A DNA stretch of 64,000 nucleotides, from positions 248,001 through 312,000 of the forward strand of contig CALVAP010000007.1 of the NCBI GenBank assembly GCA_944325625.1. Reading direction: 5' to 3'. The notes beneath the pieces are model-generated. The model ran no database searches. It saw only the letters and a list, made by a program, of their open reading frames with translations, and was not told where the DNA came from. A program made the translations under genes and the position numbers. Positions within the stretch are counted from its first letter, which is position 1; the number at the start of each line of letters is the position of its first letter. Source of the stretch: Candidatus Gastranaerophilales bacterium. GTDB lineage: Bacteria > Cyanobacteriota > Vampirovibrionia > Gastranaerophilales > Gastranaerophilaceae. Positions 31,599 through 60,340 of the stretch are shown piece by piece.

Positions 31599-32558
31599 TT
31601 ACAACTCTTTTATTTTCTTTTCTTTAAGTTTTTTTGTTTCCAAGTTTTTATAAAGGATTGTACAGCAAATACTTCTTAGCGGTAGCGTATAGCCTATTAT
31701 CACAATAGCAAGGAGATTCATTACTATGGATTTTGACAACTCTTTTACATCAAGAGTAAAGGTTATTTGGCTATTGATTGCCGAAATGATTGTTTGCATG
31801 GAGTTTTGAATATCCTCAAGCGGCAAATCTTTTGCAAAAGCTTCAACAGGGATGCAAAGATAAGAATATAGATTCAATTTTTCAAAAGCAAAGTTGAATA
31901 ATTCAGGCAAAAGATTATAAGTAAATAACCAGAGTAAAAATAAAACTATTGTTGTTTTCAAAAAATTTCCTTTAATAATTTGAACGCTTTTTTTGATAAT
32001 ATCTAAAGAATTAAGATTTTCTTCCAAGGCAAAAATTTGGAAAACCAAACTGAGATAAATCATAACAACAAGTAAAACCGCCCATAATATAGGAATTAGA
32101 CCTATTAAAGAAATAATCGACAAAATCAAAATCAAAAAAAGGTAAGTTGACATTCTTCTTGTAATAATATCGTTATGGATGTTTAAATCTTCAAGTTTGG
32201 CACCTGATATAAGGTTATTTGCCATAGAATTTAGTGCCCCCATTGCTACAAGATATTTCCAAAATGAGGCAAAAAATATCATAAAAGAAGGAACACTAAG
32301 AAGTATCAAAATTGTAAACATAATCGAAACATTGTTTAATGCCGGATTTATCAAAACTATTTTTTCAACATTATTTCCGAATAAATGAACTGTTGTAAAA
32401 ATTAATACAACACCCAAAACTTGACCCAAAACGGGGAAGGTCATATAACCTATGAACTTATCAATATTTTTGAAATATAGTTTTATTCCTTCAAAGAATA
32501 TTTTTAATGAACTAATTATTGCGGGTTCTTTTTTCTTTGCCATTTTTTTCTTCTCCAT
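31599..32558 (-). CDS. Multi-pass membrane protein of unknown function
   Basis: The 319-residue protein begins with a lysine-rich cytoplasmic stretch and has about six membrane segments: GYMTFPVLGQVLGVVLIFTT, a pair around MFTILILLSV and MIFFASFWKYLVAM, two in LFLILILSIISLIGLIPILWAVLLV, one in IVLFLLWLFTYNLLPEL, and one in LLAIVIIGYTLPL. A long soluble loop lies before the last helix. The alternating hairpin pattern and internal L-N-S-L-D-I-I-K-K-S segment are like those of uncharacterised families annotated only as membrane proteins. An in-frame ATG at 32543 has GGAG upstream and may be the real start. Operon with the zinc-ribbon gene. Confidence 0.72.
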   Translation of the reverse strand: MEKKKMAKKKEPAIISSLKIFFEGIKLYFKNIDKFIGYMTFPVLGQVLGVVLIFTTVHLFGNNVEKIVLINPALNNVSIMFTILILLSVPSFMIFFASFWKYLVAMGALNSMANNLISGAKLEDLNIHNDIITRRMSTYLFLILILSIISLIGLIPILWAVLLVVMIYLSLVFQIFALEENLNSLDIIKKSVQIIKGNFLKTTIVLFLLWLFTYNLLPELFNFAFEKLNLYSYLCIPVEAFAKDLPLEDIQNSMQTIISAINSQITFTLDVKELSKSIVMNLLAIVIIGYTLPLRSICCTILYKNLETKKLKEKKIKEL

Positions 32559-32603
32559 TTATAATCTTATATTATAATAAAATCGGGATTTTTAAAAACA
32601 ATT

Positions 32604-33236
32604 ATGGAGAATATCAAAGAAGTTTTATCAAGTTTTAAAGAAAAAGACTTTAAAAAAGATGTAAATTTACATATTCATACTGTTTTTTCAGATGGAAAAT
32701 GTACCCCCGAGGAAATTTTAAGTCAGGCGAAAAAGCTCAAAATGAAAAAAATAGCAATAAGCGATCATAACACGCTTAGAGCATATTTGGTAAATGATAC
32801 GTTAAAAAATGAGCTAGTAATTCCGGCTATAGAGTTTGATTGTTGGCTTATGGGGTGCTTAGTTCATATTTTGGGATATGGAATAGACATTAATAATCGC
32901 GAGTTACAATCATTATGTGCAAAGACAAAAGCAGGAACACAGGCTGATATTGTGCGTCTGTTTTCATATAGAAATCCAGAAAGTGTGATAAAAGCAATTC
33001 ACAATGCAGGTGGAATAGCGGTACTCGCTCATCCTGCGTGTTGTTGGGTTTTTAGTCTGAATAAACTTGTTAAGAAACTTATGAGTTTTGGTCTTGATGG
33101 GCTTGAGGTTTTTTATCAATACAGAAGGCACAGAAGTATAATAAAATTTCATTCGACAAAAAAAGTTGCAAGGCTTGCAAGAAAATATAATTTGATAGCA
33201 ACCGGCGGAACCGATGAGCATGGAGCTTTAAAGTAA
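32604..33236 (+). CDS. PHP-domain metal-dependent phosphoesterase
   Basis: The 210-residue protein is a PHP-superfamily hydrolase. Metal-binding motifs are in order: NLHIHTVFSDGK (H-x-H and D), ISDHNTL (D-H), IEFDCW, VLAHPACCW (H-P) and the terminal GGTDEHGA (D-x-H). Trinuclear-metal PHP enzymes remove phosphate from small substrates such as nucleoside 3',5'-bisphosphates or histidinol phosphate. The protein is shorter than RNase AM-type enzymes. It is the first gene of a tight operon: its stop overlaps the UbiA start by one base, hinting at a substrate linked to prenyl or radical chemistry. Confidence 0.85.
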   Translation: MENIKEVLSSFKEKDFKKDVNLHIHTVFSDGKCTPEEILSQAKKLKMKKIAISDHNTLRAYLVNDTLKNELVIPAIEFDCWLMGCLVHILGYGIDINNRELQSLCAKTKAGTQADIVRLFSYRNPESVIKAIHNAGGIAVLAHPACCWVFSLNKLVKKLMSFGLDGLEVFYQYRRHRSIIKFHSTKKVARLARKYNLIATGGTDEHGALK

Positions 33237-34234
33237 TGAGATTATTGAAAAAAATTAAATTTTGGTTGGAAAATGCCAGATACCATGCTTTGGGTCAAAG
33301 TTTGTGGGCAGGGCTTGTTGCTATAGTTATGGGCATAGGTTATCCGCAATTTAACTTGAAATATGCGATTGTTGCTCTTGTTGGAGTGTTGATGGCTCAT
33401 TTGAGTGTTAATCTGCTTGATGATTATTTCGATTTTAAATCCGGCAGTGTAGAAAAGAGAAATCAGGCTAATGAAGGAATTCGAAGCGGAAAATGCCAAT
33501 ATATAATAGAAGGTAAATCTACGTTAAAGCAACTTTTTGCTGTTGCTGTCATTTTTGGACTTTTAGCCTGTCTATTAGGATTTTATTTGTTTTATTATCG
33601 GGGTGAGGGTATTTTAATCTTTGCTATCTTAGGTGCAATTTTAGGTTTTTTTTACTCAGCACCGCCAATAAATCTTAGTTATAAAGGGTTTGGTGAACTT
33701 GTTGTCGGAGCGATGTTTGGACCTTTGCTTATGAATGGAGTTTTTTATTGTGCTACAGGTACGCTAAGCTTGCAGTTGTTGCTTCTTTCTCTTGCAATCG
33801 GGTCTTTAGTAACAAATATATTATATGTCCATTCTCTATTGGATATGAAAGCTGATATAGCAAGTAATAAAAAAACGCTCGCTATTCTTTTGCCAAATAA
33901 TGTTCTTCGATTAATTGCACTTGTTTTTTTCGCTTTTTACCCTTACTGGATAATTTCTGTTGGAGTAATCAGGTATAAAATGCCAGAGTTTTTGTTTTTG
34001 ACCTTTGTTACTATTCCGCTATCTGTTTTTTTGATTAAGTTGATGATTGAGTATTTGCATGAGGAAAAGAAAAACTATCAACCTAAATTTTGGATGGGAA
34101 AAATGGAGCATTGGGAAAAAATAAAGGCAATTGGAATAGATTGGTTTATGATTCGCTGGTTTTTGTCAAGAAATATTATGATACATTTTAGTGCATTAGT
34201 TTGTGTTGGTTATATTTTAAAAGTAGTTATGTAA
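33236..34234 (+). CDS. UbiA-family prenyltransferase
   Basis: The 332-residue membrane enzyme has about eight to nine helices and the two acidic motifs of UbiA enzymes: N-L-L-D-D-Y-F-D in the first half (with VNLLDDYFDFKSGS) and a second D-x-x-x-D site in HSLLDMKADIASNKKT. These bind magnesium and prenyl diphosphate. The first motif looks most like MenA-type enzymes, which prenylate dihydroxynaphthoate, but the acceptor cannot be told from sequence and no menaquinone genes are nearby. It overlaps the PHP gene by one base and lies one base before the radical SAM gene. Confidence 0.85.
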   Translation: MRLLKKIKFWLENARYHALGQSLWAGLVAIVMGIGYPQFNLKYAIVALVGVLMAHLSVNLLDDYFDFKSGSVEKRNQANEGIRSGKCQYIIEGKSTLKQLFAVAVIFGLLACLLGFYLFYYRGEGILIFAILGAILGFFYSAPPINLSYKGFGELVVGAMFGPLLMNGVFYCATGTLSLQLLLLSLAIGSLVTNILYVHSLLDMKADIASNKKTLAILLPNNVLRLIALVFFAFYPYWIISVGVIRYKMPEFLFLTFVTIPLSVFLIKLMIEYLHEEKKNYQPKFWMGKMEHWEKIKAIGIDWFMIRWFLSRNIMIHFSALVCVGYILKVVM

Positions 34235-34235
34235 T

Positions 34236-35144
34236 ATGAAAAAATTTGTTTATCTGCTTTGGTGGTATTTTCAAGTGAGGATTTTGCGCAGACAGAAACC
34301 TTTGCAGACTGTTCTGTTTATCAATAATGAATGTAATTTGCGCTGTAAGCATTGTTGTATTGATAAAGATACTGTCAAAATAGTGAAAAGTTATGAACAG
34401 ATTAAAGAAGAGCTCATTTATTCCCATAGTCTTGGTTCAAGGTTTGTTGATTTTGAAGGTGGAGAACCGACATTATGGATGGATGGAGAAAAGAATTTTA
34501 ATGATTTAATCATTTTAGCCAAAAAAATCGGATTTTTCTCAACAACACTTACAACTAATGCGCAAAAATCTTTTGAATGGGTTGAGGCCGATTCAATTTG
34601 GGTGAGTCTAGACGGGATAGAACAATACCATGATACAATTCGTGGCGCGGGAACATTCGACAAAGCTATTAAGAACATTGAAAAATATGCACTCAAAGGT
34701 AAAAATAATTTGTCTGTAAATATGGTAATAAATGAAATTAACAAAAATTGTGTTGAGGATATGATTAAATTTGTTGCCGAAAATCCTTATATAAATTCAA
34801 TTTCTTTAAGTTTTCACATGCCTTATAACAAAACAGCAGCTCTTTTTGTTAAAGATAGAGAAAAAATTATTGATAAAATTATTGAAATGAAAAAAAATAA
34901 CTATCCGATAATGAATACATTAAGCGGGTTAAAAGCACTCAAAAGTCCTCAAAACGGCAAATACTGTTGGATTACAAATTTTATTATGCCTGATGGATTG
35001 AGATTGAGTAAATGTCAGGGGAATGAGCATGGGCTCTGTACGGTTTGCGGGCTTGGCATGGCGTCTGAGATGAAGAATCTTTATAATTTCAGTTTAGAAA
35101 CAATTTTGGCTGGGATTAGGCTAAGATTGTTCCAAAATCGATAA
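34236..35144 (+). CDS. Radical SAM enzyme with C-terminal cysteine cluster
   Basis: The 302-residue protein has the radical SAM cluster motif CNLRCKHCC (C-x3-C-x2-C, residues about 33-40) and the glycine-rich SAM site DFEGGEPTLW. Later family marks are TTNAQK and VSLDGIEQYHDTIRGAGTFDKAI, typical of the SPASM/twitch-related group. The C-terminus holds further cysteines (YCWITNF, SKCQGNEHGLCTVCG), likely an auxiliary iron-sulfur cluster. It therefore probably modifies a peptide or lipid. One base separates it from the UbiA gene; the ATG has no Shine-Dalgarno, so translation is likely coupled. Confidence 0.87.
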   Translation: MKKFVYLLWWYFQVRILRRQKPLQTVLFINNECNLRCKHCCIDKDTVKIVKSYEQIKEELIYSHSLGSRFVDFEGGEPTLWMDGEKNFNDLIILAKKIGFFSTTLTTNAQKSFEWVEADSIWVSLDGIEQYHDTIRGAGTFDKAIKNIEKYALKGKNNLSVNMVINEINKNCVEDMIKFVAENPYINSISLSFHMPYNKTAALFVKDREKIIDKIIEMKKNNYPIMNTLSGLKALKSPQNGKYCWITNFIMPDGLRLSKCQGNEHGLCTVCGLGMASEMKNLYNFSLETILAGIRLRLFQNR

Positions 35145-35240: not shown

Positions 35241-35324
35241 TATAATAACACTATACTCCTTAGAGAACGATACACATATCCCTAATCTGAACAGCTATGA
35301 ACCCCTAATTCATAGCTTTTTTTT
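35241..35324 (+). ncRNA. Candidate small RNA with its own terminator
   Basis: In the gene-free stretch 35145-35541 a perfect TATAAT (35241-35246) is followed about 50 bases later by a strong hairpin with a T-run. A transcript of about 70 bases would start near 35253. No open reading frame of note lies between. The -35 region is not convincing, so part of the transcript could instead be read-through from the radical SAM gene. Confidence 0.4.
35293..35324 (+). terminator. Rho-independent terminator in the 35.1-35.5 kb gap
   Basis: Perfect 9-bp stem AGCTATGAA / TTCATAGCT with a 7-base loop, followed by seven T. It is 150 bases after the radical SAM gene and ends either that operon or a small RNA. 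Confidence 0.85.
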
Positions 35325-48789: not shown

Positions 48790-50046
48790 GTGAAAACAAA
48801 AGTTAGAGCATTTTCATATGTAGAATTATTGTTTGGGATGATGATTGTTTGTATTATCTTTATATCCGCAATACCCTTTTTGACGAGAAAAGCGTCAACA
48901 GTCAATGCTTCATCAGGTGAATTTCAGTGTTATACAGCGTTTAATGGAACAGAATTTCGTCTTTTTGAGCGAATGAAAAGAGGCGAGGGCGAGTTTTCTG
49001 CGCCTGTTGATGTTACGAATACCGGATGTAAATTTTTCAAACAAAAAAATGTTAATACATATAATCTTCAAATTATAGGTGGTGGCGGCGGTGGAAGCCG
49101 TTCCAGAGTTAGTGGAACAGGTGCATATTCAAATGTTTCTGTAGAAAGAGCACAAAAAGGTCAAAATGGCAAAAGCATTTCAGTACAGACAACACTAGGC
49201 GGAGTTTGGGATGAAAATGGAGTTTTGACTATTTATAAATGTCAAAATGCTGATGAGAATGTTCCACAAACTGATCCGTATAGGGAAGAATATTTGTATT
49301 GTGTGGGTGATGGCGGATTTGCGAAAAATAGTGTTTCCGGTATAGGTAAGGTTGGCGGTCGTGGTGTCAAAGAAATGGATTATTGGTCGCTTCTGGGTGT
49401 TTACCATGATATTCTTTTCAATTCCAAAACGAATGTTAATTCTATTCAATACGCAGGAAGAGGTAACGGTACAGTTACTTCGGATGATGACTTAACAAAA
49501 GTAAGGCGCATATTAGGTGAATCTCATTCTGTTTATATCAATTTGAATAATTACCTGAAATCAGGGTCGACAGATATACAATCTTTAAGAAATGCGGCAG
49601 GCCAGCTGCTGACGGTTATAAAATCATGGTCGTTTAAAACTACGGATAGTGAGGGTGGTGCAGGGGGATATTCAAGATTTGTGTTAAAAGATTATTCTGA
49701 TATCGACTGCATAAATGGAAATTGTCTTGCAAAAGGTGGCGACGGTGCAACAGGCAATACCTTAGTAAATTGTTCTTCAGCGATGGTGACTTATACAACC
49801 GCTTTTTGTAATGTAAATTCTTTGGATAACAAGTGTTCTTGTAGTTTATCATCTAATAATAAAGATTTGTATTCGTGCTTATACAATAAATCGGCAAGTT
49901 CTTCGGTATTTAATTGCAATGCGTCATCAACCAATGTTTTGGGAGCCGGAGGTGGTGCAGGATCTGGGGCATATCTTTCCAACGGCTATTCAATGCAAGG
50001 TTATGGCGGTATAGGTGGCGGCGGAGCTATAATAATCAAATGGTAG
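48790..50046 (+). CDS. Prepilin with glycine-rich, tail-fibre-like C-terminal domain (copy 1)
   Basis: The 418-residue protein starts at GTG, with GAGGGTG upstream. The N-terminus KVRA followed by FSYVELLFGMMIVCIIFISAIPFL is a prepilin signal with Glu at mature position 5. Then comes a region shared with the next two genes: SGEFQCYTAFNGTEF ... GCKFFKQKNVNTYNLQIIGGGGGG. The rest is glycine-rich with scattered cysteines and ends GGIGGGGAIIIKW. Such G-rich repeats closing on a short hydrophobic strand and Trp are known from phage tail-fibre adhesins with polyglycine helices. Likely a minor pilin or pilus-tip adhesin. First of six same-strand genes. Confidence 0.82.
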   Translation: MKTKVRAFSYVELLFGMMIVCIIFISAIPFLTRKASTVNASSGEFQCYTAFNGTEFRLFERMKRGEGEFSAPVDVTNTGCKFFKQKNVNTYNLQIIGGGGGGSRSRVSGTGAYSNVSVERAQKGQNGKSISVQTTLGGVWDENGVLTIYKCQNADENVPQTDPYREEYLYCVGDGGFAKNSVSGIGKVGGRGVKEMDYWSLLGVYHDILFNSKTNVNSIQYAGRGNGTVTSDDDLTKVRRILGESHSVYINLNNYLKSGSTDIQSLRNAAGQLLTVIKSWSFKTTDSEGGAGGYSRFVLKDYSDIDCINGNCLAKGGDGATGNTLVNCSSAMVTYTTAFCNVNSLDNKCSCSLSSNNKDLYSCLYNKSASSSVFNCNASSTNVLGAGGGAGSGAYLSNGYSMQGYGGIGGGGAIIIKW

Positions 50047-50062
50047 AAATTAAGAGGGTTTG

Positions 50063-51655
50063 ATGAAAAAATATAGTGCTTTTACAATGGTGGAATTAAT
50101 ATTTTCGATAGCTGTTATGAGTTTTTTTATGATAGCGCTTATTTTTTCTGTTGGAAAGAAAGCACAACAAAGAGCAGGAGAAGCAACTTCAGGTCGAGTT
50201 ATTTGTTATAAAAATGCTTCTGGGAAGTTAGATAAAGTTGTTGAACTTGATTATGGCAAAAGCATAAAGGTTGATAAGCAAGAAAATCTGGATGTTTGTG
50301 AATGTGAACTTCCGCAGAATATCCAATATTATACGGTTGATATAATAGGTGCAGGCGGAGGAGCTTCAGGAGCAGCTGTAGCACCGGTTGCAAATTATAA
50401 AGAAATTAATGGTTCTATTTCCGAACCTTTTAGTTGTACTTCAAATGCTACGTCATCAATGCCTACTTATTATACAAAGTCATCAGCAGGCGCAGCATCT
50501 TGTAAAACTCTTTTATCTTCGTATCCTTATTTTAATCCTGTGCTTGCGCAAACCGATGCTTCGAGAGTGCCTACATATGTTGTAAATCCTACAGTAACAA
50601 TTTCTAACCAATTTTCATCAATAATGGACAACACAACGTATAACGCTAATGTATTAAAGAATTTAACAGTATCGGTTGCAGGTGGGGCAGGTAAAGACGG
50701 TGAAACGCCTGCGATGTGCAAAATAACTAAGGATTTTGAGGTAGGAAATACGGTTTCTTGTTACTCCGGATATTCGGCGATTGAAAATTACAGATGGAAC
50801 AATGATGAAACTTGGATTTCTCCGACAGCCGGGCGGGTTATTCTAAATGGCGAAGTTCTTGTAAATGCCCCTGGGGGAAACTTTAGTGAGTGTGGAAATA
50901 CGAGTATGTTTTCATCTTCACCGGCCTGTAGTGGTGGACAAGCGTCAAATAGCTTGAATGCCGGAGTAGTTTCAGGCTCATATACATATAATGCTACGGT
51001 AATAGATAGTATGGAACTTGCAAGTGGAAGTGCCGGAAGTGCAGGAAGCTACGTTAGAAAAGAAAAGGTAAAAATAACAGATGATTTAAAAATAAAGGCT
51101 CAAGATGTTGGAAGCGGGGGCATAGCTGGTAACGTTGGAACAAATGGTGCCAATGGCGGGAATACCTGTTTTGTTTTGAGTTCAAGCACAAAATTTTGTG
51201 CAAATGGTGGTGCCGGTGGGGTAAAAAAGGCTGTTCAGACAGTATTCCCAACGAAGGATATAATTACCAATAACAATATAACTGGACGTCCTCATCCAAA
51301 TAGGGTTTTCAAGTCATATGAAGATGGACTGGTTGGGTCTGTATCAGATTATTTTACACAAGTATTCTTTTTAATGATTAGTGCAGAACAGCAAAAGAAA
51401 TATAATGGAGTTGCAGGTAAGTGTACGTTCAGTGCAAATAAGTTGACTTGTGAAGATGCAAAAACATCTGAAGAAATGAGCTATGGTCTTGGAGGAAGTG
51501 CAGCGCAAAGTGCTGTCAGATATGATTACATAAAGAGTTTTAAACTTTGTAATTCGACAACAGGTCAGTGTATCAACACGCCGGAGCATGATGCGGAATT
51601 TGTTTCCGGGCGAGGTGCAAATGGTAGTGGTGGAGCGATTATAATATCATGGTAA
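50063..51655 (+). CDS. Prepilin with glycine-rich, tail-fibre-like C-terminal domain (copy 2)
   Basis: About 530 residues. The start is the ATG at 50063 with AGAGGG four bases upstream. MKKYSA precedes FTMVELIFSIAVMSFFMIALIF, a prepilin signal with Glu5. The shared region is SGRVICYKNASGKL ... CECELPQNIQYYTVDIIGAGGGASG, and the C-terminus is GANGSGGAIIISW. Between lie many Gly-Gly and Asn-Gly turns and paired cysteines (for example CGNTSMFSSSPAC). It is a paralogue of the genes on both sides and overlaps the next by seven bases. Confidence 0.83.
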   Translation: MKKYSAFTMVELIFSIAVMSFFMIALIFSVGKKAQQRAGEATSGRVICYKNASGKLDKVVELDYGKSIKVDKQENLDVCECELPQNIQYYTVDIIGAGGGASGAAVAPVANYKEINGSISEPFSCTSNATSSMPTYYTKSSAGAASCKTLLSSYPYFNPVLAQTDASRVPTYVVNPTVTISNQFSSIMDNTTYNANVLKNLTVSVAGGAGKDGETPAMCKITKDFEVGNTVSCYSGYSAIENYRWNNDETWISPTAGRVILNGEVLVNAPGGNFSECGNTSMFSSSPACSGGQASNSLNAGVVSGSYTYNATVIDSMELASGSAGSAGSYVRKEKVKITDDLKIKAQDVGSGGIAGNVGTNGANGGNTCFVLSSSTKFCANGGAGGVKKAVQTVFPTKDIITNNNITGRPHPNRVFKSYEDGLVGSVSDYFTQVFFLMISAEQQKKYNGVAGKCTFSANKLTCEDAKTSEEMSYGLGGSAAQSAVRYDYIKSFKLCNSTTGQCINTPEHDAEFVSGRGANGSGGAIIISW

Positions 51656-53361
51656 AAAATAAAATCGGAAAACTAAATAAAAAAAAGGCAATGTCATTAG
51701 TTGCTTTATTATTTTCTTTGGCACTTTTGTCAATAATAGTTGGGATGTTTATTCCAGTACTTACGAAAGGCTATATACAGATAACGACTGGAAAAGGTGG
51801 GCTGGGAAAAATTAACCTTACAACTTCCAGCGGATATTTTATGTGCTACTACGAAGCAAATGGAGTTTTAACACAGGCTAGAGCAGATATTTCGCATACC
51901 GGTGAAATTAAACTTGTTAAAGAAGCTGCACCGTCTGGTGTGTGTAAGTTTGTAATTCCAAATAGAGCAGATAGTTTTAAGATAACATTAATTGGTGGTG
52001 GCGGTGGAGGTGCCGCGTCTCAAATAAAGACTTTGGATCAGACACTTGCTACAGCTAGTTTGGGTGGTTCAAGCACAAAATTTTCCATTCCTTCATTTTC
52101 TGATTGGACAAGTTATATATCAGAATCGAGGATTAATTCAGCTTTAGCTGCGCTTTTTTCTAACAACACTAATTCCTCAAATACATATTTGTGCATTAAA
52201 GGAAATAAAGGAAGCAATCTTGGAGCTGCAAATGGTGCCAATGGCGCTAATTGTATGGTTAGGTTTAACTTAATGCCTAAAATAAACAGCAGTTTTACAT
52301 TTGGGACAGAAGCCTCGACCAATTCTACTGTATACGCAAACAGTTATTATGTTTTGTATGAAGGCTCAAAAGCCATGGCAAGAGGTGGTGCAAATGCAGT
52401 TGCAATAAATGGAACAAATTCCTCACCCGAACAATATATTACAAGTTGTTGTGTCGGCTCTGCATTAGGTTGTCCAAGTGCGTTTAATGTATTGTGCAAT
52501 AAGATAAACAATGATTCAACGGGTGTTGGTGAATGTCAATATTCCGGTTCAAATTTGTCTGTGACAAAAGGTGGATATTGTACGTCAGGGACGCAGAGCA
52601 TAAATTTTGCAAACGGGACAAAAGTCTATTCCACAGCTCTTAGCGGGACTGTAAAGTTGTATTTGAAACGACGCGAAATAGTTAAATATACGGCAGGGAA
52701 AGGGGAATCTGGAGCAGTAGAAACAAGATCCGTTTCATTTATCTCACCAAATAGCGGCACAGATACATTTAATATTCCAGCCCGATGGCTTGGTATGGGT
52801 GGAATAGGAGGAAAACAAACAGGTAATACAAGTTATTCGGGAACGGCAGGTGGTGTAACAAAAATGGAACTATCTACGGCAGGGGATGAGTCTTTGTTGG
52901 TTCTGACGGCAGAAGGAGGTGCAGGTGGTGTAAGCCAGGAAGACGCGCAACATATTTCTGTTGGTACCTTTGCTAATCCTGATACTACAATAGATTCTAT
53001 TCCCGCAGGTACAATTTCCGGTGCTGACGGGGGATATACGGCTGATATTATTCCTCAACCACTTAGGATAACAATGCTTTCTACAGGTTTTGGCGTTGTA
53101 GATTGTAAGAATACAACTTGTGATGTAACGGCAGCAGCGACATACCCCGGAGCTGGCGGTGGTGCTGCAGGAGCGTACTACAGCGGATACAATAACGGTG
53201 CGTCGCCAAGAATAACTTTCAATTATGGTACCTCTTTAACAAATTATGTACTTGCGTCTGCAAACAATTCTTCTTCGGGAGTATCTGCTCCTGCCAGTCC
53301 AACGTTAAAATCTGGTAAAGGCGGTAATGGCGCCAGAGGAGCGATATTAATTTCATGGTAG
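51649..53361 (+). CDS. Prepilin with glycine-rich, tail-fibre-like C-terminal domain, lacking Glu5 (copy 3)
   Basis: The 570-residue protein has a longer basic leader (MVKNKIGKLNKKKA) and then MSLVALLFSLALLSIIVGMFIPVL. Position 5 of the predicted mature protein is Ala, not Glu. In type II secretion the one pseudopilin without Glu5, GspK, caps the tip. The shared region follows (SGYFMCYYEANGVL ... VCKFVIPNRADSFKITLIGGGGGG) and the protein ends GNGARGAILISW. It is the longest of the trio. Its ATG overlaps the previous stop, with no good Shine-Dalgarno, so translation is probably coupled. Confidence 0.82.
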   Translation: MVKNKIGKLNKKKAMSLVALLFSLALLSIIVGMFIPVLTKGYIQITTGKGGLGKINLTTSSGYFMCYYEANGVLTQARADISHTGEIKLVKEAAPSGVCKFVIPNRADSFKITLIGGGGGGAASQIKTLDQTLATASLGGSSTKFSIPSFSDWTSYISESRINSALAALFSNNTNSSNTYLCIKGNKGSNLGAANGANGANCMVRFNLMPKINSSFTFGTEASTNSTVYANSYYVLYEGSKAMARGGANAVAINGTNSSPEQYITSCCVGSALGCPSAFNVLCNKINNDSTGVGECQYSGSNLSVTKGGYCTSGTQSINFANGTKVYSTALSGTVKLYLKRREIVKYTAGKGESGAVETRSVSFISPNSGTDTFNIPARWLGMGGIGGKQTGNTSYSGTAGGVTKMELSTAGDESLLVLTAEGGAGGVSQEDAQHISVGTFANPDTTIDSIPAGTISGADGGYTADIIPQPLRITMLSTGFGVVDCKNTTCDVTAAATYPGAGGGAAGAYYSGYNNGASPRITFNYGTSLTNYVLASANNSSSGVSAPASPTLKSGKGGNGARGAILISW

Positions 53362-53369
53362 GATTTTTT

Positions 53370-54080
53370 ATGCAACAAAAACATCTATTTAAAAAAAATG
53401 CGTTCACACTTGCGGAAATTTTGATTACACTTGTAATTTTAGGAACACTAATTACATTAACTTCCTCAAGACTTTTAAGACAAACACCGGATATAGATAA
53501 AACAAGGTTTAAAAAAGCTTACGCAGTAACGGAACAAACTGTTCAAAAACTTGTTAACAACGATGTTTTATACCCGGGATACAAAATACTGAAAAATACA
53601 GAGCCTGTGATAACAACAGCAGGTGATCAGTTTGGTACACAGGATGAAAATGCAAAATTTAGAGAGGCTTTCAAATATTATTTGAGTATCGTAAAAGATA
53701 ATCTTGAGTGTGATATTTATCAAAACGGTCACTCTAACAAGTGTTTTATGACGAATGACGGTGTTGTATATGGTATTGCGGATACTGACTTTGAAAATAT
53801 AGGGGTGGTTGAATTTAATCTTCCTTCATCAACTGTAAGCGGGGCATCAACTGGGGCATTACCTGTGCAAAGTAATATAAAAGAAGCTTATACTCCAATA
53901 ACTGTTTATACAAGTTGGCAAAAACAAAAAGATATTTCAAAAGATGCATTTGTGATTGGGGTTCGTTATGATGGCAAAATAAAAATAATGAATAACGAGA
54001 ATTGTGCAAGTCCTAAGGACTTGAGGTGTAAAGCAGAAGAATATCTTGAATCTGAAGACATAAAAGCAAATAGTGATTAA
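53370..54080 (+). CDS. Prepilin-like protein, pilin operon gene 4
   Basis: About 236 residues: MQQKHLFKKNA followed by FTLAEILITLVILGTLITLTSSRLL. The globular part contains ECDIYQNGHSNKCFMTNDGVVYGIADTDF and ends ENCASPKDLRCKAEEYLES. The C-terminal pattern C-x7-9-C-K-A-x-x-Y is shared with the next two genes, so these three form a second paralogous set. The start at 53370 has TAGGA upstream; an ATG at 53355 lies inside the previous gene. Same operon. Confidence 0.85.
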   Translation: MQQKHLFKKNAFTLAEILITLVILGTLITLTSSRLLRQTPDIDKTRFKKAYAVTEQTVQKLVNNDVLYPGYKILKNTEPVITTAGDQFGTQDENAKFREAFKYYLSIVKDNLECDIYQNGHSNKCFMTNDGVVYGIADTDFENIGVVEFNLPSSTVSGASTGALPVQSNIKEAYTPITVYTSWQKQKDISKDAFVIGVRYDGKIKIMNNENCASPKDLRCKAEEYLESEDIKANSD

Positions 54081-54090
54081 GGCAGATAAA

Positions 54091-54807
54091 ATGGGAAAAA
54101 AATTTCAAATAAAAAGCAAAGCATTTACACTGCAGGAGGTTTTACTTTCTATAGTTGTATTTGCTGTTATAGCGACAATAGTAACGCCTGTTGTTAAATC
54201 AATAGGGGTTAATCGGGAAAAACTTGGTATAAAAAAAGCTAACCAAACTTTACATGAAACTGTACAAAATATGCTAAATGATGGGGAGGCTTACTCTGCA
54301 GATAATGATTTTTCGGATACATCATTGGTCGTTTGGTATGATGGAAATGGCAATCCAATAAATGCTGAAGGAATAAACAAATTTTCCTCAGTCTTTTTTA
54401 GTAAATTAAAACTGGCACAATATAGTAGTAAGTATACGCAGGGACTAGATTATGAACCTTGTGAGATGTTATTATCTGACGGTGTGAGTACCAAGGATGG
54501 TAGATGTTATAGAACTGAAGATGATATTGTATGGGGTGTTCCCGCAACAGATTTTAAGAATTATAATGTCGTAAAAATAGATAATAATGGCTATCAGGTA
54601 GCATATGTGCCCATAACGGTATATCCGGTGTTCGATTCGAAAAAGATGGAAGAGGATAAAAATTATTTTGAAGACAAGGCTGTTTTCTTTGCAGTAAAAC
54701 AAGACGGTGATATAAGAGTAATTACTCAAGTAGATTGTGAAGCAGAGAGAAACAAAAAGAAGCTTCAATGTAAGGCCGTAGATTATATAGCGGAAACATC
54801 TATTTAA
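54091..54807 (+). CDS. Prepilin-like protein, pilin operon gene 5
   Basis: About 238 residues: MGKKFQIKSKA followed by FTLQEVLLSIVVFAVIATIVTPVV. Glu5 is present and Gln replaces the usual Ala at position 4. The globular part has CEMLLSDGVSTKDGRCYRTEDDIVWGVPATDF, alike to gene 4, and ends VDCEAERNKKKLQCKAVDYIAE. The ATG at 54091 has AAGG upstream; a GTG at 54073 is less likely. It lies 10 bases after gene 4. Confidence 0.85.
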   Translation: MGKKFQIKSKAFTLQEVLLSIVVFAVIATIVTPVVKSIGVNREKLGIKKANQTLHETVQNMLNDGEAYSADNDFSDTSLVVWYDGNGNPINAEGINKFSSVFFSKLKLAQYSSKYTQGLDYEPCEMLLSDGVSTKDGRCYRTEDDIVWGVPATDFKNYNVVKIDNNGYQVAYVPITVYPVFDSKKMEEDKNYFEDKAVFFAVKQDGDIRVITQVDCEAERNKKKLQCKAVDYIAETSI

Positions 54808-54821
54808 GTGAGGTATCTGAA

Positions 54822-55508
54822 ATGCGAGATAAGAAATCAGGATTTACATTGGCAGAAGTATTCTTGTGTATGGTTGTTCTGATAACAATAACGGCAATGA
54901 TGTTGCCGGTTTTAAAGAAAATTATGCCGGATAGTGATGCCGCTAAATTTAAACAGGCATATTTTGCAACTCTTTCTGTAGTTGATAACATGCTCTCCGA
55001 TAGCGTTTTTTATCCTGATGCAAGAGGTTTTGCTGATACTTCCGTGATAAGGGATAATTTTGGTGTATTGCATGGCGGAGATAGTAAATTTGCAGAAGCG
55101 TTTAAGATGAATCTGAACATTATAAAAGAAGGTATAACGGCAGGTTCAGGTCAATATCCATACGGAATGGATGATGAAGATAAAGTTAAATCCTCAACAA
55201 ACAACGAGTGTGTAAAGGCAAATACAGGTATAATTTATTGTTTGCCTCAAAAAGTAGACACCTTGGATGCGAACAATCCTAGCGGTAATGGAGCTGTATT
55301 TGTAAGATTGTATATTAATGATAAAGACGGTTATGATATAAAACAAGCCTTTTTTGTTGGAATTAAGGCGAATGGTAAAATATTTTTGCCTTTGAATGTT
55401 CCTAATTACTTTGACTGCACAATATCTGAAGATGGAAGACAAAGAGATAGAGATTATAACCAGTGTAAGGCGAATGGTTATCTTTCAAGTGCCGTATTTG
55501 CAAAATAG
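54822..55508 (+). CDS. Prepilin-like protein, pilin operon gene 6
   Basis: The 228-residue protein starts MRDKKSG followed by FTLAEVFLCMVVLITITAMMLPVL, a classical prepilin signal. The globular part has NECVKANTGIIYCLPQKVD and ends FDCTISEDGRQRDRDYNQCKANGYL, sharing the C-terminal C-...-C-K-A pattern with the two preceding genes. GTGAGG lies upstream. It is the last gene of the plus-strand run and is six bases from the converging prepilin at 55514. Confidence 0.86.
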   Translation: MRDKKSGFTLAEVFLCMVVLITITAMMLPVLKKIMPDSDAAKFKQAYFATLSVVDNMLSDSVFYPDARGFADTSVIRDNFGVLHGGDSKFAEAFKMNLNIIKEGITAGSGQYPYGMDDEDKVKSSTNNECVKANTGIIYCLPQKVDTLDANNPSGNGAVFVRLYINDKDGYDIKQAFFVGIKANGKIFLPLNVPNYFDCTISEDGRQRDRDYNQCKANGYLSSAVFAK

Positions 55509-55513
55509 GTCAT

Positions 55514-56863
55514 TTATCTTGGAAGTACTTCTATTCGACAACGAGAGTTCTTGTAAGAGCAACCGTGCTCTTTGTCTGCAATTCCTGATGAGGTTAAAGG
55601 AAGGATAGAAGAGCTACTGCCTTCAGAATCAAAGGTAAACTGTTTTATAAGTCTTGATAAGAATAAATCGGTGTAGTCGCCTGCGCTTGATATTCCGTTT
55701 GGATTAGCCCAAGCACGGTTATATAAAAGAGTTGAATAAGTGAAGGGCTCAGAAACATTAAAAGCTTGGTTATAGGCAAGGGTTGAAATATCTGCACCTT
55801 CTGAATCACTTGGACCCCAGGCATACATTTTAGCTTGGAAGAGAGTTTCAGCTTCTGAGTTGGTTTTTTCATTTTTTTGAAGTCTACCGTTAATATCCGT
55901 AGAATTGAGATATTCTGGGTAGTAAACAACTGCATTAAGATAATTTTTACTAAATTCCGGTCGTCCGAGTGGAACAACAGTTCCGTCAGATTTAATAGCA
56001 AAAAGAACGATATCAGGCAGAACCCCTGTATTAATATTTTTTGTGTTTCCACCGCGTCTTAGCTGGGTGTTCGGGCTATTGTCACCATTTAGGTCAACTG
56101 CTATGAATCTGAACATTTCACGGTCTTTTTGTAAATCAAAAGCTGCAATATTAGCATTTGTACTTAGAATTCTTGAAATATAGAATTTTTGTCCATTTGC
56201 AGTTACAAAAGAAGGTTGAAGTTCTTCTACACATTCACCATTAGTAACGCTATTAGCAGAACCATCTGCATTTTGGGAGTTTATAATTCTTGCAACTTGA
56301 TTATCATAATCATTTTTACTTAACATCGAAGTGTTGCAGAATGCATCAAAAAAGTTTATTCCTTTTGTATAATCAAGATTTTTACCATCTTTTTTTGTAG
56401 CATAAGTATTGATGAATGACTGGCACTCAACATTTTGATTAATCGTGTTAAGTTGAGCGGTTAGCATTTTGCAAAAGTGTTCATCTGTTCTGTATCCGTT
56501 GAATTCTCCATTGGTATAACTTCCCATTAAAAATCCCGGATAATTCCTTGATACGCCATTATGACCTTCCGCTTGTGGTTCAAATTCTTCCCAACAGGAT
56601 TTTGACCAGCAAACGTGTTTTTGTGAATCGATATTTGTGAGCATGGTTGATGTAGAGCAACTACAGTTAGGTTTCCAGTTAAGAAACGAATTTCCTACAG
56701 CTTGAAGCAAAGTGTTATATGCGGTATAATACATTTTTTGATAGTCATTGTTAGCTTTTCTTACAACGTTTATGCTAAGAGTGGAAATTACACCAATAAT
56801 TGCAAGCGCAATAAGCATTTCTAAAATAGTAAACCCGTGTTTTTTAATTTTATTTCGATTCAT
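55514..56863 (-). CDS. Large prepilin-like protein on the opposite strand
   Basis: The 449-residue protein has the textbook prepilin N-terminus MNRNKIKKHG followed by FTILEMLIALAIIGVISTLSI, with Gly before the cleavage site and Glu5. The mature domain is large and cysteine-bearing (NCSCSTSTM, HVCWSKSCWEE, ECQSF, CNTSM, and a late GCSYKNSRCRIEV). Stretches such as RFIAVDLNGDNSPNTQL show a D-x-N-x-D calcium-loop-like pattern. It converges on the six-gene operon and is divergent from the thioredoxin gene, so it has its own promoter. Function within the pilus is unknown. Confidence 0.84.
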   Translation of the reverse strand: MNRNKIKKHGFTILEMLIALAIIGVISTLSINVVRKANNDYQKMYYTAYNTLLQAVGNSFLNWKPNCSCSTSTMLTNIDSQKHVCWSKSCWEEFEPQAEGHNGVSRNYPGFLMGSYTNGEFNGYRTDEHFCKMLTAQLNTINQNVECQSFINTYATKKDGKNLDYTKGINFFDAFCNTSMLSKNDYDNQVARIINSQNADGSANSVTNGECVEELQPSFVTANGQKFYISRILSTNANIAAFDLQKDREMFRFIAVDLNGDNSPNTQLRRGGNTKNINTGVLPDIVLFAIKSDGTVVPLGRPEFSKNYLNAVVYYPEYLNSTDINGRLQKNEKTNSEAETLFQAKMYAWGPSDSEGADISTLAYNQAFNVSEPFTYSTLLYNRAWANPNGISSAGDYTDLFLSRLIKQFTFDSEGSSSSILPLTSSGIADKEHGCSYKNSRCRIEVLPR

Positions 56864-56962
56864 AAAAATCTTTCTACTTTATTTGTATTAAATTATTATA
56901 ACATGTTTTCTTTTTAATACAAAGTAGTGTAAAATGAGTGTGAATTAATAATGGAGGGTAGT

Positions 56963-57526
56963 ATGTCACAAAAAAAGGATGACGCTAAAAAAGGCAAATG
57001 CAAATGTTCTAAAATTAGAGTGTTTAATGGAGTAGTTCTAATAGCGGTGTTAGCGAGTTCAATAACATCGGCATATTATAGCTATAGTGTAAATAAAACA
57101 CTGGATGCTATTATAAAAGGGATACAGCCCTCAGCGGCACAAGCAGCACCTGCTACGGATTCTAACGATTCCATTACCAAAAAGTATGCAAAGAATAGAA
57201 CATTAGAGAAGGCTCAAAAAACCGAAAAGCCAATCATAGCATTTTTCTATGCAGATTGGTGCGGTTATTGTAAAAGATTTGCACCAACGTTTGATAAGAT
57301 TACCAAAAATGGTGATATTAAGTCTAATTTAGCTGTTGCATATATCAATTGTGAAGCTCCTGAAAATGCACACCTTATCAGCGAATACCAGATTCAAGGC
57401 TTTCCCACGGTATATTTGATTAATCCAAAGACAGGAACAAAAGAACAAGTTAATAATAGTGAACTTTTTACTGCCACAGCAGAAAGAGATCTTACACAAA
57501 AGTTTGTAAGTTTTGCAAAAAAATAA
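56963..57526 (+). CDS. Membrane-anchored thioredoxin-like protein
   Basis: The 187-residue protein has a cytoplasmic tail with CKCSK, one membrane helix (about 19-40), an Ala/Pro linker, and an extracytoplasmic thioredoxin domain. The active site is FYADWCGYCKRF (Cys100 and Cys103), and the cis-Pro loop is QGFPTVYLI. It would act on disulfides outside the membrane. It lies 120 bases upstream of the cysteine-rich 897-residue prepilin, which makes a role in folding that protein and other cysteine-bearing pilins plausible. The start at 56963 has GGAGG just upstream. Confidence 0.88.
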   Translation: MSQKKDDAKKGKCKCSKIRVFNGVVLIAVLASSITSAYYSYSVNKTLDAIIKGIQPSAAQAAPATDSNDSITKKYAKNRTLEKAQKTEKPIIAFFYADWCGYCKRFAPTFDKITKNGDIKSNLAVAYINCEAPENAHLISEYQIQGFPTVYLINPKTGTKEQVNNSELFTATAERDLTQKFVSFAKK

Positions 57527-57646
57527 AAAATTTTTAAAAAAGGTAACAATTACAGCAAACTCGGCTTTAAAAATATATATTGTATGATATACTATTATAT
57601 ATAAGTGTGTTATAGTGGTGTAAATATTTAATAAGGAAACTATGAA

Positions 57647-60340
57647 ATGAAGAAAAAACTATGTTCTTGGAAATCGGCGGCTCCTAGTTTTTTTAACGCT
57701 ACAAAAAAAGCGGTAACTTTATCAGAGGTATTGCTTACAGTAGCGATTATTGGTGTAGTTGCAGCAGTAACAATAGGTGTTTTAAGAATTAACGCCTCAA
57801 CACTGGAAAACAAGGTGGGTCGTGCAAAATTTATGAATGACCTTTCGATTGCATTGGCAAACATGCAATTGGAGGGTAAGCTTGCTGGATATTCAAATAC
57901 TCAGGAGTTTGTAAAAGAATTTAAGAAGTATTATGATGTAGAAACAGAATGTTCCGGCGGCGCAAATTGTCTTGCGGACGTATATAAGGACCCAAATGGT
58001 GAGGATATTTCTAATCCGTCTGATTCTTATGATTATGTGTTCAAGGATAAAAGCGGAGCAACTGTTGGATTGTCATATAATCCGTCGTGTTCTGCATCTA
58101 CCCCGTTTGCAAAAGATTCTTCTACTGCAAACAGAGCGGAGCATGATATAACAATGCGTAATTCTGCGCTAAAATGCGTTGATGGGGTGTATGATATCAA
58201 TGGTGGAGACAAGGGTCCGAATAAAATAGGTGATGATGCAGGACTTATTAATCCTTATCCTGCAAATACGCCAAATTGTACCGGTAATTTTATTCCGGAT
58301 GATGAAGGTAATTGTATCTCTCCGGTGACGAAGAGTGAATGTGCTAGTATGGGCAGAACATTGGATGAGAAGCTTGGTGCTTGTGTTTGTAATGTCAAAT
58401 GCCCAATAGGTCAAAAAATAAATCAAGATACATGTAAATGTGAATGTACGTTGAATGCGAATAGTTGTGATTCTACATATTCAACGTTTGACCCGGATAC
58501 TTGTACTTGTAAGACAACGTTGAATATACCGATTCAGTGTGCCGCAAATGGAGGTACTTGGAATGCAGAAAAAGGAACTTGTGAATGTATTCCTGAAGGT
58601 GCAGAAGGCTCTTGTTCGGTAAGATACAACGGATATGCATCTGCAGACAAAAAAGATTTTTGTAAGTGCAAATGTAATTCTACAAGTGCTATTAGCGCTC
58701 AGATTGCAATAAACGGAAAAAATGTTTCAGGGGCAACAAAGTATACAAAACCAAGTAATGACTTGAGTAATGGCTGTTATATATGTGAATCTTCTGATTC
58801 AACAGCATTTACGATAGAAAATAACAAAGATAAGGGTATATGTTCACCGAAAAGCAACATAGATCCTGCATCTTGTCCGAATGACGGTACATTCTTTGTA
58901 TGGCAGGATTATAATCCGAATAATGAGAATGATAGTTTCTATTGTAAATGTGTATTAAAACAGGAGTATTGCACAGGTAAATTTGAAGCTGCATATGCTC
59001 AACAAATTGGTGGAAAGCCGAAGGATAATACTTGTAAAGGCGCAAATTCCAGCACATATCACTACAGCTGTGCGGCCTATGAAAAAGGAAAAAGTTGGAG
59101 AACTTGCAATGGTTGCTTCTATGCGGTTGATCATCCCGAAAAACTTGCAATAAACGGTACTCTGAAAACAACTGCAAATGATACGGGGGTCAAAGGGCAA
59201 AATTCGAATGCCAATACTTGCTATTGCAAACCATCAGGCGGGCAACTTCCTAGCAATACCAAGCCGACAATATACTTCCATGGTAATCCATTTTTATTGG
59301 CGATAGCATTTACATTTGATACAAAAGATGTAAATAATATTCCTGGTGCATATTACGGATCTGGAAATAAGGTAAACGTCAAAAATGCGCTTATACAGGA
59401 AAGCACTCGTTCTTGGTATGATCCAATTATTTTAAATGTTTCATCTTCAAATGGTTTAGAAGAACCTAAGACAACCGCAGATATTGCTACAAAATTCAAA
59501 GGTCAAATCGAAAATGGTGTAGCCAAAGAGATAGTTACTGCTTGGCTTGCACCACAAAGTACACCTGCTTTTTATTTCCTTGTTAATGACAGAAATAAAA
59601 ACGGAGTAGTAGATGATATTACAGAACTATATAGTGAGCAAGGTGGTGAAGTGACAGGGCTGCACCAACTTGAAAGAGAATTTAAGGGTTCTGTTACTAA
59701 CAATGCAGTAATCTCATACAACGATTTTAGAACTTCAGGTCTAAAATTGTGGGCAGATATGAATGCAGATGCCAAAGTAAATGGAACAGAAAAACTAAAA
59801 GACTTATTAAAGTTATATGCGGCATCTAAACAAGTTGTAGTTTCGCCTGCAGTATATGATGGAGATGGTAACATGGTAAGTCCAGAAGTTACGAAGGATG
59901 AGCTCTACTTTACTAAGCTTGGCGGTTTAGGTGTATCCGCAATACATACAAAATATGTAGCAAAAGCTGTGGATGAAACCGGTTCTCCGATGAGAACAGA
60001 TACGGCGGTAATTGCTATCCAAGGTCGATTTAAAAAACTTGTACCAGTAAGTAGTATAGATGAAAACAACTATAGGGTGGAAATTGTGCCAAAGCAATCT
60101 GGTTTAAATCCCGAAGTTAAATACGTTGACACTAAAACTGGTCAAGAAGTTACAGTGGTAACCTATATGAATGATTTAAATTGGACAGATAAGTACTACT
60201 TAGGTCAAGCGGCTGACGCATCTAAAGAGCTAAATGGAGCAAAAGCCTTCCTAAAAGTAATAAATCCAAATGGAAGCGTAAGCTACTATGTCGAAGAAGT
60301 AAGAGGATTAACTGACGTAATATTTGACTTTAGTCCTTAG
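57647..60340 (+). CDS. Giant cysteine-rich prepilin-like protein
   Basis: The 897-residue protein has a 24-residue basic leader (MKKKLCSWKSAAPSFFNATKKA), then VTLSEVLLTVAIIGVVAAVTIGVL with Glu5, a prepilin signal. After about 190 residues comes a cysteine-rich zone (about 205-530) of EGF-like spacing, for example CVCNVKCPIGQ, CKCECTLNANSC, CTCKTTL and GTCECIPEG. The C-terminal third has calcium-loop-like segments (DRNKNGVVDDITELY and DMNADAKVNGTEKL) and beta-type sequence to the end. It may be a pilus-tip adhesin. AAGGAAAC lies upstream of the ATG. A terminator follows directly. Confidence 0.83.
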   Translation: MKKKLCSWKSAAPSFFNATKKAVTLSEVLLTVAIIGVVAAVTIGVLRINASTLENKVGRAKFMNDLSIALANMQLEGKLAGYSNTQEFVKEFKKYYDVETECSGGANCLADVYKDPNGEDISNPSDSYDYVFKDKSGATVGLSYNPSCSASTPFAKDSSTANRAEHDITMRNSALKCVDGVYDINGGDKGPNKIGDDAGLINPYPANTPNCTGNFIPDDEGNCISPVTKSECASMGRTLDEKLGACVCNVKCPIGQKINQDTCKCECTLNANSCDSTYSTFDPDTCTCKTTLNIPIQCAANGGTWNAEKGTCECIPEGAEGSCSVRYNGYASADKKDFCKCKCNSTSAISAQIAINGKNVSGATKYTKPSNDLSNGCYICESSDSTAFTIENNKDKGICSPKSNIDPASCPNDGTFFVWQDYNPNNENDSFYCKCVLKQEYCTGKFEAAYAQQIGGKPKDNTCKGANSSTYHYSCAAYEKGKSWRTCNGCFYAVDHPEKLAINGTLKTTANDTGVKGQNSNANTCYCKPSGGQLPSNTKPTIYFHGNPFLLAIAFTFDTKDVNNIPGAYYGSGNKVNVKNALIQESTRSWYDPIILNVSSSNGLEEPKTTADIATKFKGQIENGVAKEIVTAWLAPQSTPAFYFLVNDRNKNGVVDDITELYSEQGGEVTGLHQLEREFKGSVTNNAVISYNDFRTSGLKLWADMNADAKVNGTEKLKDLLKLYAASKQVVVSPAVYDGDGNMVSPEVTKDELYFTKLGGLGVSAIHTKYVAKAVDETGSPMRTDTAVIAIQGRFKKLVPVSSIDENNYRVEIVPKQSGLNPEVKYVDTKTGQEVTVVTYMNDLNWTDKYYLGQAADASKELNGAKAFLKVINPNGSVSYYVEEVRGLTDVIFDFSP

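Follow-up and report, generated by a model that had tools for sequence, protein, structure and literature searches.

Here we describe a 64,000-nucleotide stretch of a Candidatus Gastranaerophilales genome (contig CALVAP010000007.1; the whole stretch is called the window below) and, within it, three adjacent genes for a phosphoesterase, a membrane prenyltransferase of the UbiA superfamily and a radical S-adenosylmethionine (SAM) enzyme. The last two prove to be a conserved pair, which we examine as a candidate module of quinone biosynthesis. The features of the locus, with lengths in amino acids (aa), are as follows.

32604-33236, + strand: PHP-family metal-dependent phosphoesterase, short form, 210 aa, assigned by Pfam; a lineage-specific neighbour outside the conserved core
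Within this gene: PHP motif residues H23/H25, D30, H55, E77, H88, H143, D204 and H206
33236-34234, + strand: UbiA-superfamily membrane prenyltransferase, MenA-like, 332 aa; first core gene
33410-33433, + strand: first Asp-rich motif of UbiA, N59-L-L-D62-D63-Y-F-D66
33830-33877, + strand: second Asp-rich motif of UbiA with the module-specific His (H199, D203, D207, K212, T214)
34236-35144, + strand: radical SAM enzyme, 302 aa, bearing four Cys in a C-terminal motif and a conserved helix at the N-terminus; second core gene
34332-34355, + strand: C33-x3-C37-x2-C40, the motif for the SAM-binding [4Fe-4S] cluster
34965-35048, + strand: C244, C260, C268 and C271, a putative auxiliary [4Fe-4S] site, kept in all 59 aligned members of the family

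The PHP and UbiA open reading frames (ORFs) have one base in common (TAATG), and one base separates the UbiA gene from the radical SAM gene. The ORF coordinates thus bear out an earlier note on this DNA, which had described three genes with a one-base overlap and a one-base gap. The families that it named, a metal phosphoesterase, a membrane prenyltransferase and a radical SAM enzyme, all agree with Pfam matches above cut-off, at 39.5 bits for PHP (PF02811, cut-off 26.4), 92.2 bits for UbiA and 59.1 bits for Radical_SAM (PF04055), and the auxiliary cysteines that it had noticed are the four listed above. The G+C content of the three genes is 33-34% against 35% in the window, and because of this match nothing flags them as recent imports.

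Scanning 84,980 species genomes with two short peptide patterns, a method that under-counts, yields 57 loci. They are mostly from Bacteroidales, together with Gastranaerophilales, Adiutrix-like Deltaproteobacteria, one Lachnospiraceae bin and one Coriobacteriia bin. Many have rumen, colon or faeces in their record titles, and several carriers are presumably of termite origin, judging from their isolate codes. In 30 of the 57 loci both ORFs are intact and on the same strand, and the radical SAM gene immediately follows UbiA, at a gap of -124 to +66 nucleotides (nt; longest-ORF starts). The radical SAM gene lacks an intact UbiA ORF beside it in 25 loci; one locus (L082) has UbiA beside a radical SAM match whose ORF was not called, and another (L086) has the radical SAM gene beside a broken UbiA. 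PHP stands next to the pair in the window and in two loci of the same genus (L035 and L062) but nowhere else, and since six more flanking gene families are also syntenic in these two, its adjacency adds little. Accordingly, of the three-gene neighbourhood proposed in the earlier note, the adjacency of UbiA and radical SAM recurs, while the part concerning PHP is not supported, as no locus outside the genus has it. The conserved unit is the UbiA-radical SAM pair, with PHP as an accessory confined to the window's genus.

The two genes also keep company when they lie apart. A UbiA profile search covered 34 carrier genomes, including 19 with the genes apart, whose UbiAs were not in the query alignment. 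Among these 19, a full-length UbiA orthologue is found elsewhere in the genome in 15 (E <= 6.5e-115), partial UbiA in two (G198 at a contig end, G207 as two fragments), and none in two (G205 and G209). Among 247 Bacteroidales genomes drawn separately, nine have this radical SAM enzyme (E <= 2.7e-146), two of which (G203 and G198) were previously known carriers. Eight of the nine have the UbiA orthologue (E <= 1.1e-116) and the ninth, G198, has the fragment at a contig end; none of the remaining 238 genomes has it, the next-best UbiA being at 1.8e-57. Tree distances of the two proteins are correlated, with r = 0.94 for 31 linked pairs and 0.89 for 44 pairs (as high in 0 of 2000 permutations); this correlation is partly due to common host ancestry and is supportive only. 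A Bacteroidales genome of only 1.2 Mb (G313) retains both genes, unlinked, which suggests that the pair matters to its host. The Coriobacteriia bin (G220) has two pairs, the second (L088/L143) with both proteins divergent and with UbiA lacking the module-specific residues.

Neighbour ORFs of at least 70 aa were clustered in the 57 loci plus three more, and around unlinked UbiA genes. A third conserved gene was rejected: the clusters showed lineage synteny only, such as ffh with flagellar genes in genus g16 and a lipoate ligase with a HAD phosphatase in rumen Bacteroidales, and none was common across lineages. Nor is there a sign that phages or plasmids spread the pair, with two partial matches at 28% identity on viral contigs and two below 33% identity on plasmids. 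A literature search limited to open-licence papers found no description of a UbiA-radical SAM pair.

The window's UbiA is related to MenA (1,4-dihydroxy-2-naphthoate polyprenyltransferase) but stays well below its thresholds. Its best NCBIfam matches are MenA models, at 100 bits against a cut-off of 277, with TIGR00751 at 52.1 against 102.15; ChlG and other models score lower, and PRK12884, which we take to be of the archaeal lipid type, gives 36 bits. The solved structure closest to the UbiA profile is human UBIAD1 (92.9 bits). The comparison set for UbiA also comprised E. coli MenA and 20 further UbiA proteins; of these 20, four from Bacteroidales (L180-L183) are neighboured by an ORF of 272-282 aa at the position of MenB. 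As in MenA, both Asp-rich motifs for Mg-diphosphate are present in the module UbiAs (N59/D62/D63/D66 and D203/D207). However, the window's protein has H55, D62 and H199 in place of the Q, N and N of E. coli MenA, and has a longer loop after the first motif, and E. coli MenA is without the C-terminal R307-W308-x3-R312 conserved in module UbiAs. H55, D62 and H199 are found in 48 of 50 module UbiAs, the two exceptions being one Coriobacteriia gene counted twice. From these residues we infer that the acceptor has probably changed relative to MenA. Two other arrangements of UbiA were seen in passing. In one genome (G272, L154) a divergent UbiA, unusual in its second motif, is convergently oriented to a likewise divergent gene of the sister radical SAM clade described below; in two Bacteroidales loci (L170 and L171) two UbiA-family genes stand in tandem, one per pair being the closest outsider to module UbiA (1.8e-57 and 1.7e-55).

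In the radical SAM family, C33, C37 and C40 (CxxxCxxC) are present in 58 of 59 members, and the C-terminal cysteines bring no SPASM match in Pfam. The structure model has a mean predicted local distance difference test score (pLDDT) of 93. It begins with a helix at residues 2-16, in which W10 is found in 59 of 59 members; since hydropathy does not make it a transmembrane segment, the helix may be a membrane-surface anchor. The top structural match is BlsE (Z 21.8, 261 residues, 3.4 A, 16% identity), covering residues 20-297 including the C-terminal part, followed by SkfB, viperins and tetraether synthase at Z of about 20, the next match being at 20.3. BlsE is described in a part of PMC3715490 as a radical SAM decarboxylase. 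Among the fold neighbours are also SuiB and other peptide maturases besides SkfB. The best NCBIfam match is the PTO1314 family (TIGR03961), at 67 bits against a cut-off of 306, and tetraether synthase gives 44.7 bits, with PDB 7tol/7tom matched. Thus PTO1314, tetraether synthase, HpnH, viperin and BlsE share the core domain and CxxxCxxC with the window's enzyme, whereas the latter is far under their family cut-offs and its own family adds the four C-terminal cysteines.

A sister radical SAM clade occurs in Bacteroidales and Lachnospirales, homologous over nearly the full length (E about 1e-53 to 1e-73) but on a separate tree branch, with a HemN-like gene as partner and not UbiA. Among 392 Lachnospirales genomes, 20 match at E <= 1e-40; 19 of them belong to the sister clade, and only G217 is a true carrier. 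The HemN-like gene adjoins the sister gene in Lachnospirales, among the matches listed. This neighbour, a radical SAM gene of about 417-431 aa, makes a recurring two-radical-SAM pair in two phyla (L155-L162 and L191-L209).

In a quick tree of 66 radical SAM rows, nine Gastranaerophilales-related rows form one clade, with 99 in the Shimodaira-Hasegawa-like approximate likelihood ratio test (SH-aLRT), within a Bacteroidota-dominated family, and the Adiutrix-like, Lachnospiraceae and Coriobacteriia rows are scattered. The tree fits transfer among gut anaerobes, though its direction is not provable from the tree. Raw identities had hinted at a separate acquisition of the module by two Gastranaerophilales genera; this is unsupported, the nine rows being monophyletic. 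In the window's class, 4 of 194 genomes have the radical SAM orthologue: the window's own, one congener, which keeps all three genes, and two of genus g16, in which the pair adjoins ffh and PHP is missing.

The PHP gene, as said, belongs to the genus only. Its motif residues, which we take to bind metal, are invariant in the three copies of the genus. The protein shares metal-ligand motifs with RNase AM / 3',5'-nucleoside bisphosphate phosphatase (61.5 bits to PDB 3e0f), but scores 74.7 against 375 and 72 against 400 bits, missing the equivalog cut-offs, and some 70 residues are absent from it between the halves that match. Other phosphatases lie directly upstream of UbiA or radical SAM elsewhere: PAP2 in L070 (4-nt overlap), an alkaline phosphatase in L039 (9 nt) and HAD phosphatases in L049 (10 nt) and L051 (31 nt), with a further HAD phosphatase 170 nt upstream in L041. 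On the whole, a phosphatase is upstream in 5 of 19 lineages with a co-directional neighbour within 100 nt, a post hoc grouping from which two spurious-looking ORFs (L054 and L129) were dropped; the background rate is a rough estimate from single-sequence searches. A phosphatase step, served by four folds (PHP, alkaline phosphatase, HAD and PAP2), may belong to the pathway, and we treat it as a lead.

Gene absences in the carriers bear on the probable product of the pair. The window genome (1.70 Mb, 99.7% complete), that of a gut-type Melainabacterium, has one UbiA gene, no MqnA/D and no MenB match, so the remark in the earlier note that no menaquinone genes are near extends to the whole genome; the ubiquinone genes that it also mentioned were not searched for besides UbiA. 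MqnA/D are in none of 34 carriers and none of seven more, compared with 4 of 14 control genomes over cut-off, and MenB is above cut-off in none of the 34 carriers, compared with 7 of 14 controls. In the Bacteroidales draw, 81 of the 247 genomes have MenB over cut-off but none of the nine carriers does, which by an estimate from the counts would occur by chance alone a few times in a hundred. With the scores below all MenA cut-offs, UbiA is thus not the MenA of a full menaquinone pathway; the opposite outcome is the one that the earlier note had named as counting against its proposal.

The strongest positive link to quinones comes from an uncultured Lachnospiraceae bin (G217; L064/L210), where the pair ends a co-directional gene run. 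In order, this run encodes a BisC-family S/N-oxide reductase alpha subunit (partial) and beta subunit, a 145-aa protein, a HepT-type prenyl synthase, a UbiE/MenG-type methyltransferase, FixC, FixX, a 72-aa protein, UbiA and the radical SAM enzyme. The methyltransferase scores 166 bits with PF01209 and 157.4 bits with TIGR01934 (cut-off 158.35). A prenyl synthase, a methyltransferase, UbiA, FixCX and a terminal reductase together are what one expects of a quinone operon. Compared with the menaquinone HepT-MenG genes with FixCX, the run likewise has a prenyl synthase and a UbiE/MenG-type methyltransferase beside UbiA, but differs by its radical SAM gene and by having no head-group genes, and the arrangement is not at the window locus. 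The bin's genome is also without MenB above cut-off and without MqnA/D.

We put at about even the chance that UbiA and the radical SAM enzyme work as a module of two in a pathway not yet described, one that leads to a prenylated redox lipid of the quinone type in anaerobes with neither of the known menaquinone routes. The data show the families, the motifs, the co-occurrence, the absence of MenB and MqnA/D and the one operon of quinone type; the link to quinones is based mainly on that operon and the gene absences, and substrate, product, order of steps and radical reaction are inferred. In such a pathway, a trans-polyprenyl diphosphate synthase encoded elsewhere would supply the tail, and UbiA would put it onto an aromatic acceptor unlike the usual acceptor of MenA. 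The radical SAM enzyme, held on the membrane by its N-terminal helix, would then alter the head group, for example by decarboxylation or dehydrogenation, with the help of the SAM radical and a single additional Fe-S cluster, and in some hosts a UbiE-type enzyme might methylate the product. Of the lipid, quinone or peptide that the earlier note offered as products, the quinone is the best supported, while the peptide is without evidence, precursor peptides not having been searched for systematically.

Several observations weigh against this proposal. In 15 of the 34 carriers, crotonases reach 110-147 bits with the MenB model, below its cut-off. The quinone-type operon is in only one of the 57 loci, in a bin that may be misclassified, and six of its proteins used as queries (HepT, UbiE, FixC, FixX and both reductase subunits) give no match in the 64-kb window, the whole genome not having been searched. 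Six carriers (G195, G201, G214, G290, G342 and G415) have a second MenA-like UbiA, adjoining UbiE in two of them (G342 and G415; L184 and L185), and some carriers may therefore have another quinone source. A second prenyl synthase was rejected as a partner of the module, as nearly every genome of the window's family has two PF00348 genes, whether or not it carries the module. The co-occurrence counts are not phylogenetically independent, and the lead of BlsE over the next fold match is only 1.5 Z. Finally, Melainabacteria sampled from the gut are said, in the relevant part of PMC3787301, to be without quinones and respiration.

One alternative is quinone salvage or remodelling, in which the hosts would make no head group and UbiA would re-prenylate a naphthoquinone or naphthoate scavenged from the diet or from neighbours, after the radical SAM enzyme has stripped the old side chain or another group, like UBIAD1 with a radical helper. 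We consider this unlikely. In its favour are MenB above cut-off in 0 of 34 and MqnA/D in 0 of 41 carriers, the gut or rumen origin in many record titles, and the closeness to UBIAD1, although that rank may reflect the few solved MenA-type structures. According to passages of PMC7928036, mice remodel labelled dietary vitamin K with complete replacement of the side chain, and a gut species cleaving the side chain has been proposed; the same passages report no such cleavage by human stool cultures. Moreover, the UbiE-type methyltransferase in the L064 operon would be needless for an already methylated ring. Still less probable is a prenylated lipid other than a quinone, such as an ether lipid or a phospho-lipid, whose chains the radical SAM enzyme would join or alter in the manner of tetraether lipid synthase, with the adjoining phosphatase removing a phosphate. 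The likeness to tetraether synthase and the upstream phosphatases of four different folds in several lineages speak for it, while the 100 bits of UbiA to MenA models against 36 to PRK12884, as well as the quinone-type operon, speak against it.

A prenylated specialised metabolite or a radical-modified peptide, that is, a ribosomally synthesized and post-translationally modified peptide (RiPP), seems improbable to us. The peptide maturases among the fold neighbours and the patchy distribution in 4 of 194 class genomes would suit it, but no third gene is common to the neighbourhoods and hence no common precursor gene of at least 70 aa (ORFs below 70 aa were not examined), nor does any transporter or protease recur across lineages. 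Hardly credible, in our judgement, is that the two genes are functionally unrelated, being adjacent by chance or hitch-hiking. The 25 loci of rSAM genes without intact UbiA would allow for this; against it stand the presence of both in one genome when apart, the exact carrier match in the 247 Bacteroidales genomes and the correlated tree distances, which, with the adjacency in 30 loci, uphold the idea of the earlier note that both enzymes act in one pathway.

Besides the genes above, two putative signals flank the transcription unit.

32537-32565, + strand: sigma-70-like promoter match, TTGCCA-17-TATAAT, 11 of 12 positions, a consensus match only
35293-35317, + strand: terminator-like hairpin followed by a T run, the likely end of the transcription unit

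The promoter call is weak, as 29 promoter-like sites were found against 20.6 expected in shuffles, and its first hexamer falls within the divergent gene at 31599-32558. This gene encodes a membrane protein of 319 aa without a Pfam family, starts 45 nt upstream of PHP and is syntenic beside it across the genus. Further along, at 48790-60340 of the window, prepilin-like genes stand in a run, several in tandem, with N-termini such as AFTLAEILITLVILGTL; they were annotated by eye only.

A survey of human gut genomes reports, in the part of PMC4746308 concerned, bacteria with quinone-dependent reductases but without Ubi, Men or Mqn, and points to alternative routes; its main text nowhere uses the term 'radical SAM'. 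With the UbiA-radical SAM pair, two specific genes are now candidates for an alternative quinone route of this kind. It is possible, though we hold it only tentatively, that the pair marks another route to a respiratory quinone, besides Men, Mqn and Ubi. In it, the radical SAM enzyme would complete or build the head group while the prenylated intermediate is bound to the membrane; the route would have moved between phyla of gut anaerobes and would give a lipid electron carrier even to a supposedly quinone-free gut Melainabacterium. If true, the view of quinone-free gut Melainabacteria, as given in that part of PMC3787301, would need revision, and the pair could bear on which organisms remodel vitamin K in the gut, a question raised in the passages of PMC7928036 mentioned above.

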